Positions 1-3,865 of a stretch of DNA of 64,000 nt are shown in pieces. Made by a program: the position numbers and the translations under genes. How positions within the stretch are numbered: position 1 is the stretch's first letter; the number at the start of each line of letters is the position of its first letter. This DNA is from Portibacter marinus. GTDB lineage: Bacteria; Bacteroidota; Bacteroidia; Chitinophagales; Saprospiraceae. The stretch covers positions 238,258 to 302,257 of the forward strand of contig NZ_JAJNKB010000005.1 of the NCBI RefSeq assembly GCF_021533195.1, read 5' to 3'. The notes under the pieces were generated by a model. The model made no database searches. It was not told where the DNA came from and worked only from the letters and a program-made list of their open reading frames with translations.

Positions 1-189
1 TAAGAATAGCAAATAGGAAGAGTTGGTACCAAAAGAGGAAGTGAAAAGTATTTCATCTTCGTCAAAATATTGGTAAAGCTTCCTTAGTCTTTCTTCCGGA
101 TTTAAATTCTCAAAAATGCCATTGTACTTACCTATTGAAAACCGCTCAAAATCAAAACGCTCTTCCTTTGTCTCCTTACTAGAAATCAT
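1..189 (-). CDS. cysH: Phosphoadenylyl-sulfate (PAPS/APS) reductase, N-terminal part, cut by window edge
   Basis: Only the first 63 codons are inside the window; the frame is open at base 1. The residues around 50-60 (FTSSFGTNSSYLLFL) match the nucleotide-binding start of the PAPS reductase family, which usually reads SFG followed by a run of hydrophobics. The enzyme reduces activated sulfate to sulfite in the cytoplasm, using thioredoxin or a similar donor. The ATG overlaps the stop of the siroheme synthase gene by one base (TGATG), so the two are translationally coupled. It is the fourth structural gene of a sulfite-reduction operon. Whether it acts on APS or PAPS depends on C-terminal cysteines not visible here. 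Confidence 0.8.
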   Translation of the reverse strand, partial: MISSKETKEERFDFERFSIGKYNGIFENLNPEERLRKLYQYFDEDEILFTSSFGTNSSYLLFL

Positions 190-791
190 CAATTCTTAAA
201 TTCTTTTAGTTCAATCATACTTTTAGTCAAATCGTTAAGGATTTTGACTTTTTCTTCAAAATTTCGCTTCAACTTGCCGCGAAAGGCATGTAAGTTTTGT
301 AACAATTGGTTGGTATCTTCTGGAAATACTTCTTCGAAAACCTGCCTAAGTCGTTTAGCCAGGGTAGGGGATTTGCCATTAGTAGATATAGCAATTTTAA
401 GATGCCCTTTAGTCACGATGGATCCCAAATAAAAATCGCAAAGGTCTGGAGTATCTGCCACATTTACAAGTTTTCCTTTGGCTTTTGCCACTTTCCAAAC
501 CTCTTTGTTTAAAGATTCAATGTTGGTTGCTGCGATCACGAGATCGTATCCTTCAACATCTTCATCTGAAAATTCTTTCTGTTCAATCTTGAAACTGGTC
601 TCATAATAACCTTCCATCATCGCCCAAATACGATCATTGATTTCTGGTGCTACGATCTTTACATGGGTGATGGGGCTGCTTTTTAACATGAAAAACAATT
701 TTTCATATCCCACTTCACCCGCACCAACGACAAGTACTTTCAGTCGGTCAAGCCTGAAAAATACCGGAAACAACTGATTTTTCTGTTGCAT
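189..791 (-). CDS. Siroheme synthase, precorrin-2 dehydrogenase / ferrochelatase (Met8/CysG N-terminal type)
   Basis: A 200-residue protein with an N-terminal Rossmann motif GAGEVG at residues 23-28 and the family block NVADTPDLCDFYLGSIV around 110-127, followed by ISTNGKSPTLAKRLR. Members oxidise precorrin-2 to sirohydrochlorin with NAD and insert iron, giving the siroheme needed by the sulfite reductase encoded two genes upstream. The length fits the stand-alone Met8 form without the methyltransferase domain, which is supplied by the neighbouring gene. The first 44 bases overlap the end of the methyltransferase frame, an unusually long overlap. The start is well placed because family proteins begin a few residues before the LFPVF-like strand. 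Confidence 0.88.
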   Translation of the reverse strand: MQQKNQLFPVFFRLDRLKVLVVGAGEVGYEKLFFMLKSSPITHVKIVAPEINDRIWAMMEGYYETSFKIEQKEFSDEDVEGYDLVIAATNIESLNKEVWKVAKAKGKLVNVADTPDLCDFYLGSIVTKGHLKIAISTNGKSPTLAKRLRQVFEEVFPEDTNQLLQNLHAFRGKLKRNFEEKVKILNDLTKSMIELKEFKN

Positions 792-1536
792 TCTCTACAG
801 TTTTAGAATGTTCTAAATAAGCATTTACTACCTCTCCGATATAGATTATCGCAGGGGTAGCAATGCCAGCTTTGCTAACTTTCTCTCGAATCTCATTTAT
901 TGTACCATAGACCGCCTTTTGATGACAAAGCGTTCCATTTTGAATAACTGCTATTCCTAGATTTGCTCTATTAATTTCAAGATACTTTTGAACTATTTCA
1001 TCAAGCTTTCCCAAGCCCATTAACACTACAACTGTACCTTGAAGATCTGTGGCTTCTAAAAAGTCCTTACTCAAGTTTCCATTTTTACCTACAGCGGTGA
1101 CAACATGAAAACTACGACTAATATTTCTTAGCGTGACTGGTAGTCCATTCCAGGCGCTCACTGCAGTAGCACTGGACAAACCGGGAATAATTTCTACCGG
1201 AATCCCTAATTTTTCTGCATGTATTAGTTCTTCGAATCCTCGTCCGAAAACAAATGGATCTCCTCCCTTCAGGCGGACAACATGACCGATTCTTACAAAA
1301 TCGATTAGTTTGTCATTGATTTCTTCCTGCGTTGCGAAATGTTTTGCAGCTCGTTTTCCTACAAAAATTTTCAATGCATGAGAAGGAGCTTCAGCAATAA
1401 GTGCTGGATGAACCAATGCATCATACAATAAGACATCTGCTGATTGAATGGTCTTCAAACCTCTTAAGGTAATCAGATCCGGATCTCCTGGTCCAGCTCC
1501 AACGAGTGATATTTTATTCATTGAGTCTTGTTGCAT
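748..1536 (-). CDS. cobA: Uroporphyrinogen-III C-methyltransferase (SUMT)
   Basis: Makes precorrin-2 from uroporphyrinogen III by two SAM-dependent methylations, the first committed step to siroheme. Motifs of the tetrapyrrole methylase family are clear: VGAGPGDPDLITLRG at the N-terminus, VRLKGGDPFVFGRG and EIIPGLSSATA in the middle. I place the start at 1536 because AAAGGAAAG lies at ribosome-binding distance before this ATG. An upstream in-frame ATG at 1569, overlapping the reductase stop by eight bases, is possible, and so is one at 1518. It is co-transcribed with the reductase and siroheme synthase, so both methylation and oxidation/chelation steps for the cofactor are in the operon. Confidence 0.9.
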   Translation of the reverse strand: MQQDSMNKISLVGAGPGDPDLITLRGLKTIQSADVLLYDALVHPALIAEAPSHALKIFVGKRAAKHFATQEEINDKLIDFVRIGHVVRLKGGDPFVFGRGFEELIHAEKLGIPVEIIPGLSSATAVSAWNGLPVTLRNISRSFHVVTAVGKNGNLSKDFLEATDLQGTVVVLMGLGKLDEIVQKYLEINRANLGIAVIQNGTLCHQKAVYGTINEIREKVSKAGIATPAIIYIGEVVNAYLEHSKTVENATEKSVVSGIFQA

Positions 1537-1561
1537 GTTTCTTTCCTTTAAGCCAATTTGA

Positions 1562-3694
1562 TTATGCATTGTAGTAGCTTGCTGTGACCAATAAATCGTC
1601 AGGACTCTGGGTTTTATCTGATCTTACTGCATGAACCTTTTGATTAAAAGCTGAAGCGTCTTCAAGATATTTGACAGCAAATTCCTGATCCGCATTTTCT
1701 GTCTTCATTCTCAATACATATTCTGGAAAATTTGATTCTTTTGCCCAAAGAGGGTCTTGTCCATAGTGTGTTTGGAAATCTTCCAGAATTTTAATGTGGG
1801 TATTGCACTTCACATCCTTAGCAAGGAGAAGCGCCTTAGCTCCTACTATAAATGAAGTGTATGCATGATAGATGGCTTCTGAATACTCACTGATCTCTAA
1901 TTTTGCCCAGGCACTTTCTAGTTTTTCATCTGAATCTTTAACGATCGAAGAAAGCATGTCCAATGCTACACCTGCGCATTCACCCACTCCAATAGCTTGT
2001 ACATATTCTTCCTCATGTCCCCAATCCAGAAAATCTAAATTGGTCAGGCTATCTTTGTCCGCCAGGTCTTTAAGTAATTCGTAAAAATATTTTTTACCTA
2101 ATCGTACGGCATATTCTGTAAAGTGCTCGTCGATTTCAGCCACTTCATGGTAGTCATTTAGAAGTATGCTGATGGCTTCAGGGATTCTCTTCGTAGGTAA
2201 CTTAATGATCTTTTCGGCGATATACGCTTTATGTCCCACCACACCGCCACCTAACACTACCTGCATAGCGGGTAGAATTCGACCATCGACTTTAATTGAA
2301 CTTCCATGAAGTCCTATACTGGCGGCCATGTGCTGTCCGCAGGCATTCATACAGCCACTAATTTTGATGCTGATATCTTCATTTATTAAGAAAGCCTCAT
2401 GTGTTTTTTTGATGTGATTTTCAATTTCTTCAGCCAATCCAGTAGAATTGGTTACGGCCAGATTACACGTGTCGGTACCCGGGCAGGCTGTTACGTCTAA
2501 AATGGTTTCAGCCCCAAAGTCCGCAAGACCTATGATGTTTAGCTCATTGTAGATTTGCTCAATGTCCTGAGCCGCTGCAAATCTCAATAAGATTCCCTGG
2601 TGAACAGTAAAGCGGATGTCATCTGCAAAATATCGTTTGACAATTTTAGAAAGCGCACGCGCTCTGTCCGATGAAATATCTCCAAGCCTGATTTTAATAT
2701 TAACTGAATAGTAATCTGTACCTTTTATTTTTTTGAGATTGGTTTGTTTCCACAACTCAAATGCTCTATCGTCGGTAGCTTTCAGCTCATAAGGAATGGC
2801 TTGTTTTTTGGGCTGGGGAGCCTGCCATAAGTCTTCAGCAATTTCTATTTGCTGAGCAGGTAATGCTTTGAGTTCTTCATGAATAAGTCTTAATAATTCT
2901 TCCTGCCCAAAGCTCTTGAGTAAGAACTTCATTCTGGCCTTAAATCTCTTTTCCCGCTCTCCATATCTATCGAATACACGAATGGCTGCTTCCATAAAGG
3001 GTATGATCTCCTCAGTCGATATAAACTCACTGATGGTTGCAGCTTCCATTGCTTGTGCACCCAATCCTCCTGCTAATAGTAGTTTAAAACCACGCTGTCC
3101 CTTATTAATTCTGGGTATAAAGCCAAAATCATGAAAGTATGTAAAAGCTGAATCCGCATCGCTGGATGAAAAGGCAATTTTAATTTTCCTGCCCATTTCC
3201 TGGCAAATGGGATTTCTTAAAAAATAGTTGTAAACACCAACGACATATGGTGTAATATCAAAAAGCTCTTCAGGGTCGATGCCCGCATTAGAAGATGCTG
3301 TAATATTTCTGACAGTATTTCCACAAGCTTCTCTTGCATTCATGCCAACGTCAGCCATCAATTCCCAAACCTTAGGAGAATTTTTAAGCTTGACATAGTG
3401 AAATTGAATATTTTGCCTGGTTGTAATATGCAGATTGCCGGTTGCATATGCGTCAGAGATGTCAGCAAGTCTGTACAATTGATCGGCTGTAACATGTCCA
3501 AATGGAATTTTGGTTCTAAACATATGGACACCCAGTTGCCTTTGACCGTAAACGCCTCTTGTTAGTCTATAATGTTTGAATTTGTCTTCATTCATTTGAC
3601 CTTTTTTGAATTGCTCAATTTTGAACTTAAGCTCATCTACATCAGCGTTGGCCTCTGCAATAAATTGTTCTTTTGTTCTACTCGTTACTGACAT
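1562..3694 (-). CDS. Siroheme nitrite/sulfite reductase with C-terminal HEPN-like extension
   Basis: A 710-residue ferredoxin-type sulfite/nitrite reductase. Two half-domains are present; the siroheme/4Fe-4S ligands are in TACPGTDTC (C404, C410) and SGCMNACGQ (C448, C452). The substrate is most likely sulfite because the neighbours are cysH and siroheme genes. Residues after about 566 are an addition to the usual length; the stretch AIYHAYTSFIVGAKALLLAK resembles a HEPN helical bundle but I see no R-x4-6-H nuclease motif. The start at 3694 (MSVTSRTKEQ) is preferred: the in-frame ATG at 3736 lies in the loop of a terminator hairpin. Expression is probably controlled by the Cys-run leader peptide upstream. 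Confidence 0.88.
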   Translation of the reverse strand: MSVTSRTKEQFIAEANADVDELKFKIEQFKKGQMNEDKFKHYRLTRGVYGQRQLGVHMFRTKIPFGHVTADQLYRLADISDAYATGNLHITTRQNIQFHYVKLKNSPKVWELMADVGMNAREACGNTVRNITASSNAGIDPEELFDITPYVVGVYNYFLRNPICQEMGRKIKIAFSSSDADSAFTYFHDFGFIPRINKGQRGFKLLLAGGLGAQAMEAATISEFISTEEIIPFMEAAIRVFDRYGEREKRFKARMKFLLKSFGQEELLRLIHEELKALPAQQIEIAEDLWQAPQPKKQAIPYELKATDDRAFELWKQTNLKKIKGTDYYSVNIKIRLGDISSDRARALSKIVKRYFADDIRFTVHQGILLRFAAAQDIEQIYNELNIIGLADFGAETILDVTACPGTDTCNLAVTNSTGLAEEIENHIKKTHEAFLINEDISIKISGCMNACGQHMAASIGLHGSSIKVDGRILPAMQVVLGGGVVGHKAYIAEKIIKLPTKRIPEAISILLNDYHEVAEIDEHFTEYAVRLGKKYFYELLKDLADKDSLTNLDFLDWGHEEEYVQAIGVGECAGVALDMLSSIVKDSDEKLESAWAKLEISEYSEAIYHAYTSFIVGAKALLLAKDVKCNTHIKILEDFQTHYGQDPLWAKESNFPEYVLRMKTENADQEFAVKYLEDASAFNQKVHAVRSDKTQSPDDLLVTASYYNA

Positions 3695-3710: not shown

Positions 3711-3750
3711 AAAAAAAAATCCCTTCGAAATTTCATCTCGAAGGGATTTT
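3711..3750 (-). terminator. Intrinsic terminator of the sulfite-reductase attenuator
   Basis: Read on the minus strand, a perfect 13-bp stem is formed by 3750-3738 and 3728-3716 around a 9-nt loop, and is followed by nine consecutive Us (3719-3711, partly within the stem). It lies between the leader-peptide stop and the reductase start, so it must be bypassed for expression. The 5' arm plus loop can also pair with the end of the leader peptide frame. Confidence 0.92.
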
Positions 3751-3800
3751 AGTATACTATATAAATACATTAAAGATCCGATCCAGATGAATCATTCATC
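3732..3800 (-). promoter_or_regulatory. Putative attenuator: competing protector and antiterminator pairings
   Basis: Three minus-strand segments compete. Segment 1 (3800-3794, GATGAAT) lies directly after the Cys codons and can pair with segment 2 (ATTCATC, 3792-3786). Segment 2 extended (3791-3772) can instead pair with segment 3 (3750-3732, the 5' arm and loop of the terminator): UUCAUCU with AGAUGAA, then GA with UC, GGAU with AUCC and UUU with AAA, 16 pairs by eye. A ribosome stalled on the Cys codons would cover segment 1 and free segment 2, preventing the terminator; one reaching the stop would cover segment 2 and permit termination. The pairings are seen; the mechanism is inferred from the trp/his attenuation model. 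Confidence 0.72.
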
Positions 3801-3865
3801 ATGCAACAACAACAGCACATCATTGCTATTCTTATGGTCCCGGCTTTAAATGTAATATCATTCAT
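3770..3865 (-). CDS. Cysteine/methionine-run leader peptide
   Basis: A 31-codon frame, MNDITFKAGTIRIA then MMCCCCCMM then NDSSGSDL. Residues 15-23 are nine consecutive sulfur amino acids; the five Cys codons (TGC TGT TGT TGT TGC) are at 3817-3803. The frame ends at 3770, 20 bases before the terminator stem. It heads the sulfite-reduction operon, whose end product is cysteine. Such runs are typical of leader peptides that sense the charged tRNA of the pathway product. Cys-run upstream frames are known in actinobacteria; I do not recall a described example of this form in Bacteroidota. Met codons on both sides may add methionine sensing. It is too small to have been called by most gene finders. 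Confidence 0.82.
   Translation of the reverse strand: MNDITFKAGTIRIAMMCCCCCMMNDSSGSDL

Follow-up and report, generated by a model that had tools for sequence, protein, structure and literature searches.

A poly-cysteine leader reading frame and candidate transcription attenuator preceding a sulfite-reduction operon in Portibacter marinus and other Bacteroidota

A short open reading frame with a run of cysteine codons, followed by the elements of an attenuator, precedes a sulfite-reduction operon in the 64,000-nucleotide stretch of Portibacter marinus DNA analyzed here (the window), and this layout is real (Table 1). Based on sequence comparisons and modeled RNA folds, we put at about 90% the probability that this leader is a ribosome-mediated, cysteine-responsive transcription attenuator of the trp/his type that would sense charged tRNA-Cys. 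A trp/his-type reading had been proposed in a first-pass annotation of this DNA, and it is supported by the recurrence of the leader in relatives with co-varying antiterminators. Such an attenuator would give sulfite reduction in Bacteroidota a concrete cysteine-responsive mechanism that is recognizable from sequence alone.

Table 1. Features of the leader region and operon in the window
Feature	Position	Strand	Basis
Candidate promoter: TTTG at 3927-3924, 20-nt spacer, CAATATTG at 3903-3896	3927-3896	(-)	Box scoring, alignment
Leader ORF, 31 codons plus stop, MNDITFKAGTIRIAMMCCCCCMMNDSSGSDL	3865-3770	(-)	ORF reading; counterparts found in relatives
Met codon pairs flanking the Cys run	3823-3818 and 3802-3797	(-)	Sequence
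Five consecutive Cys codons (TGC TGT TGT TGT TGC), proposed stall site	3817-3803	(-)	Sequence
Predicted protector hairpin, 6 pairs, 3-nt loop	3800-3786	(-)	Folding
Predicted 5' strand of the antiterminator (region 2), partner of 3750-3732	about 3791-3772	(-)	Folding, duplex energy
Leader stop codon	3772-3770	(-)	
Predicted intrinsic terminator, 16-pair stem, 3-nt loop; 5' arm is region 3	hairpin 3750-3716, element 3750-3711	(-)	Folding
Siroheme sulfite/nitrite reductase family protein (NirA-like), first operon gene	3691-1562	(-)	NCBIfam
Uroporphyrinogen-III C-methyltransferase, siroheme synthesis	748..1569	(-)	Family match
Siroheme synthase N-terminal-like dehydrogenase	189..791	(-)	Family match

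The 31-codon minus-strand frame with the residues MMCCCCCMM that had been annotated earlier was recovered by ORF reading, and translation of the leader ORF places this run inside it. When the window was aligned with its two genus mates, all changes within the Cys run were synonymous, with the sole exception of the first Cys, which is Gly in G002. A pattern scan of the 5.19-Mb genome for (TGY)4 gave 35 matches, 30 of which became loci; only the two overlapping matches at this locus fall outside longer open frames, and the other 28 overlap open frames of at least 87 codons.

The best NCBIfam matches of the reductase encoded by the first operon gene score below the equivalog cutoffs. Beyond the genes in Table 1 comes the gene for phosphoadenylyl-sulfate reductase (cysH), which lies mostly outside the window, and then one for a thioredoxin-reductase-like flavoprotein; because cysH is a neighbor, sulfite reduction is favored over nitrite reduction. 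A sulfite-reduction operon makes sulfide for cysteine, and the Cys run of the leader ORF matches the end product indicated by these gene families.

RNA spanning positions 3880-3705 has a folding z of -3.85, with 0 of 200 shuffles folding as well. The terminator with nine U residues that had been annotated at 3750-3711 folds as a 16-pair stem (-19.6 kcal/mol computed for the hairpin), with positions 3719-3711 forming the U tract. The annotated protector also stands as a hairpin at 3800-3786; the seven pairs and 1-nt loop described for it are impossible, and it folds with six pairs and a 3-nt loop instead. The antiterminator duplex in the window has an energy of -16.4 kcal/mol (z -3.43 compared with shuffles). 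With a ribosome on any of the five Cys codons (modeled one nt upstream of each) and the 5' arm of the terminator made, the antiterminator is the minimum-energy fold, at -18.5 to -18.6 kcal/mol. A ribosome at the stop codon covers region 2; in this case, the computation gives no fold until the 3' arm of the terminator is made, and only the terminator is possible. These ribosome-position folds bear out the earlier description of 3791-3772 pairing with 3750-3732 as an antiterminator exclusive with the terminator. After the 3' arm has been completed, the terminator is computed to be more stable than the antiterminator even if the ribosome is stalled; the switch would therefore need to act kinetically, as that of the trp leader does.

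According to the proposed mechanism, a ribosome supplied with ample cysteine would reach the stop codon and cover region 2, and the terminator would then halt RNA polymerase before the sulfite reductase gene. If Cys-tRNA were scarce, the ribosome would stall in the Cys run; region 2 would then stay exposed and pair with the 5' arm of the terminator, and RNA polymerase would continue into the genes for sulfite reduction and siroheme synthesis and into cysH. We infer from this arrangement that the leader is translated, that ribosomes stall on it, and that it responds to cysteine, possibly also to methionine. Leader-peptide transcription attenuators of the trp/his type are known from enterobacteria; as in those systems, a short ORF containing repeated codons for the product of the pathway is followed by a protector, an antiterminator, and a terminator, all before a biosynthetic operon. 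Unlike in the trp/his systems, the codons here are for Cys with flanking Met, the organisms are Bacteroidota, and many relatives have two units in series.

A search of 100 genomes for the reductase gave matches at E ≤1e-60 in 28, among them the genome of the window. Loci of the relatives were combined with the best 80 of the named loci listed, giving 104 loci after removal of L061 and L086 (duplicates of L037 and L056), L073 (its leader is a near-repeat of that of L070), and L058 (no upstream DNA). This set still includes L078 and L090, with 3 and 0 nt of upstream DNA, and L037, L047, L068, and L103, with 321-578 nt. A strict rule called a poly-Cys sORF when at least 4 Cys occurred in 6 residues, with an upstream ATG, no more than 900 nt upstream of the reductase, and a terminator was called at -12 kcal/mol or better if it started 10-60 nt past the leader stop. 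Among the loci listed, 39 of 104 have a strict poly-Cys sORF, 34 have a terminator at 10-60 nt, and 17 have two complete units; the corresponding numbers for the 27 loci from relatives of the window alone are 21, 20, and 11. The first-pass annotation had suggested checking in relatives whether the Cys run and the pairing are conserved, and both recur, the run in these 39 loci and the pairing as the co-variation described below.

Named carriers of the leader include Saprospiraceae MAGs, Fulvivirga, Marinoscillum, Cesiribacter, and a Chitinophagales MAG. The strict rule found no poly-Cys sORF in 65 of the 104 loci listed (two of the 65 without usable upstream DNA), so the leader is not universal, and the loci listed from Flavobacteriia, Sphingobacterium, Spirosoma, Fibrella, Larkinella, Runella, and Chitinophaga contained no poly-Cys leaders. 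Where the reductase is not the first gene, a leader could lie further upstream, and up to 6 kb was scanned with a Cys-run rule. A looser rule that allows CCC gave 65 leaders in 45 of 105 loci listed, with two leaders in 20 loci, and this set includes a few apparent chance cases, such as the second leader of L089, and L132. L063 and L074 contain poly-Cys frames with no upstream ATG and were excluded from the leader list; a terminator-like hairpin follows in both. By eye, the hairpins of L042 and L079 are weaker or U-poor. In three Pedobacter loci (L094, L099, and L111), shorter CCC or CCCC runs followed by KTQ or ETK and a stop occupy the same place, and a detected terminator follows two of the three; these leaders are possibly a reduced form of the poly-Cys leader.

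The antiterminator was analyzed in 57 leaders with a terminator, the 8 of 65 looser-rule leaders with no detected terminator being excluded. Pairing of the region after the Cys run with the 5' arm and loop of the terminator had a mean z of -2.29 relative to dinucleotide shuffles, with p <0.05 in 36 of 57 leaders; it was nonsignificant in 21, two of which (L075 and L085) paired more weakly than their shuffles. In 56 nonredundant leaders, matched pairing averaged -13.95 kcal/mol, compared with -9.48 kcal/mol (SD 0.34) for re-dealt partners, and 0 of 20,000 re-dealings, a statistic that ignores kinship, reached the matched value. Control pairings gave -6.87 kcal/mol with sequence upstream of the run and -9.25 kcal/mol against the 3' arm of the terminator. 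Of the 56 terminator arms, the leader's own ranked first for 14 leaders and among the best three for 20. Swapping arms between the two leaders of one locus keeps genome and composition constant; in the 18 loci with two testable leaders, the own pairing was better than the swapped one in 31 of 36 cases. Because pairing with the own arm is far better than with the arms of other leaders, the antiterminator co-varies with the terminator. In 48 of 56 leaders, the stretch that a ribosome at the stop codon would cover also includes part of the antiterminator duplex.

These results bear on the possibility that the main target of the poly-Cys ORF is translation of the gene that follows and that the hairpin is an incidental terminator. 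Mycobacteria have polycysteine leaderless sORF attenuators (Canestrari et al. 2020; PMC9031893, PMC9094748, PMC13236596), and in passages of two of these papers the M. smegmatis poly-Cys sORFs are reported to regulate downstream translation (PMC9031893; PMC13236596). As described in those passages, the systems are alike in that a poly-Cys sORF lies upstream of a sulfur or cysteine operon, and in mycobacteria cysteine availability sets the speed of the ribosome. Translational control would also be a better fit for leaders with a C-terminal Cys run, 6 of 10 of which have no terminator-like site in the scan, the other 4 having weak or distant ones. In contrast to the leaderless sORFs and translational control in those passages, the poly-Cys leaders before the reductase have a strong terminator at a fixed spacing and a co-varying antiterminator, which point to transcription; we therefore consider a mainly translational role improbable. 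The poly-Cys leaders of Bacteroidota and mycobacteria are probably of independent origin.

Still less probable is that the leader ORF encodes a functional small Cys-rich (e.g. metal-binding) protein and that the terminator merely marks its 3' end. In its favor are the recurrence of the Cys run and the lack of an NCBIfam family match for the leader peptide, but the peptides share little outside the run beyond the flanking Met, and both the stop-to-terminator spacing and the antiterminator pairing are kept. The sORF also recurs in front of the sulfite reductase gene, and often there are two in series with different peptides.

Cys runs within 650 nt upstream of the 104 listed loci number 60 in the sense and 2 in the antisense orientation, and the 65 looser-rule leaders contain 46 distinct DNA runs, with TGT used 213 times and TGC 107 times. 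Because TGY repeats read as Leu one frame over, the frames were compared using terminators picked blind to frame (n = 58). The distance from the stop of the Cys frame to the terminator has a median of 28 nt and an SD of 14, with 53 of 58 within 10-50 nt, compared with SDs of 52 and 411 nt, and 25 and 26 of 58 within 10-50 nt, for the other two frames. A terminator pick favoring the Cys frame had placed 52 of 56 within 10-50 nt, and the frame-blind repeat agrees.

Translation of the YTG (Leu) frame of the run instead is very nearly negligible as an explanation. T/C variation is silent in both the Leu and the Cys readings of TGY repeats, and poly-Leu frames are present in 33 listed loci versus 36 for poly-Cys. 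However, 49 of 51 poly-Leu runs contain no more than one codon other than YTG, whereas YTG makes up only 49% of the Leu codons of the neighboring reductase genes; an upstream in-frame ATG is found for 10 of 56 in the Leu frame and 56 of 56 in the Cys frame (the latter following from the selection rule); and the spacing from Leu-frame stops to the terminator is scattered. The poly-Leu reading was rejected on these grounds, and we infer that the poly-Cys frame is the translated one. A metabolite riboswitch or T-box in place of a leader peptide would likewise account for a structured 5' leader with a terminator, but it is almost certainly not the explanation, as no Rfam family matched within the window at gathering score and what recurs is a run of codons in a single frame.

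Two features, the tandem arrangement in relatives and a general enrichment of Met, are additions to the first-pass annotation. At tandem loci, a separate terminator and antiterminator belong to each of the two units (mean z -2.66 and -2.12); in the window and in each of its two genus mates there is a single unit and no tandem pair. A promoter score of at least 9 was found between tandem leaders in 0 of 18 cases, compared with 3.4% of shuffles, and the tandem units fit two attenuators in series on one transcript, although a promoter of another type could lie between them. Met accounts for 37 of 127 residues just before the Cys run versus 23 of 742 further up, and for 27 of 119 residues just after it versus 15 of 421 further on. 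The enrichment before the run could come from start codons; that after the run cannot easily be so explained, and a Met-flanked Cys leader might read methionine supply too.

Taken as a whole, the idea that Bacteroidota have an attenuator of their own, in which a Met-flanked poly-Cys leader reads both Cys and Met and many genomes stack two units behind one promoter as two serial cysteine checkpoints, has in our judgment slightly less than an even chance of being right. If it is, a tandem attenuator for the same signal would sharpen the switch, and the tandem form raises the testable question of what benefit a second copy of the same attenuator brings. The Met enrichment next to the run points to the possibility of a single leader reading both of these sulfur amino acids.

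Several published systems can be compared with this one. According to passages on Salmonella mgtCBR, one leader RNA contains two short ORF-based attenuators, for ATP and proline (PMC3641672); the tandem loci of the relatives also have two each, and both of their units carry Cys runs. In the same phylum as the window, leader-peptide attenuation, the same general mechanism, is suspected for amino acid operons of Flavobacterium psychrophilum, in passages that name no cysteine or sulfur operon (PMC9723704), and passages of a Bacteroides transcriptome paper mention sORFs reminiscent of leader peptides. The relevant passages of Naville and Gautheret (2010) give leader-peptide systems as known in Proteobacteria and Actinobacteria and add Firmicutes. 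No cysteine leader in Bacteroidota is described in the open literature searched. Poly-Cys leaders are already known from mycobacteria, and the mechanism of the one in the window is very likely that proposed in the first-pass annotation.

The specificity of the run was also assessed with short DNA patterns. Bare (TGY)5 proved useless for searching, matching 59 of 60 genomes, many through long repeats. Of 150 family genomes, 12 contain ATGATG(TGY)4, with 13 sites in all: 9 precede this sulfite reductase, 2 precede OAH sulfhydrylase, and 2 lie elsewhere. Six of the nine reductase-linked sites were already in the locus set (including the window and, by identical peptide, the L067 genome), and three, in two genomes, are new. 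No Cys or Met leader was found before the OAH sulfhydrylase gene in the genome of the window or in those of the two genus mates.

A second leader type, in which the ORF closes with the Cys run, was seen at L173, L175, L070 (4080-4109), L073, L074, L077, and L080 (3821-3847). These leaders precede homoserine sulfhydrylase genes (by family search for L070, L173, and L175), with a ferredoxin-like gene, recognized by eye, between the two in L070-like loci. No terminator-like site was seen at L070, L073, L077, L080, or L175, and those at L074 and L173 are weak. C-terminal Cys-run leaders were also seen in two Pontibacter (L085, 5528-5551, and L089, 5571-5597) and in Botryobacter (L105, 5682-5702), lying 319-473 nt before the sulfite reductase match; there is no terminator-like site at L105, a weak one at L085, and one far downstream at L089. 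Folding gave no common structure for the second leader type, which may work by another route, such as translation.

Promoter boxes were scored against what we take to be the Bacteroidota consensus. Those of the window score 8 of 10, which is weak alone, as 34.8% of shuffled regions reach at least 8; in the two genus mates the score is 9. Boxes scoring at least 9 precede the first leader at 16 of 43 loci listed, compared with 4.8% of shuffles, and transcription from the candidate promoter of the window would start about 25 nt upstream of the leader ATG. A sigma-54-like reading of TGGCAC was set aside: its spacing is one short of the consensus as we assume it to be, and among the leader loci scanned it is confined to the genus of the window. 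Upstream of the candidate promoter, a block of ~60 nt (about 4003-3940 in the window) is well conserved in three genus members, and its CATATGRTC core also occurs upstream of the leaderless relatives L046, L055, and L066. This core is found in 6 of 104 upstream regions of listed loci (shuffled mean 0.46) and, being present in just those six, was dropped as an operator common to the loci. The conserved block could be an activator site.
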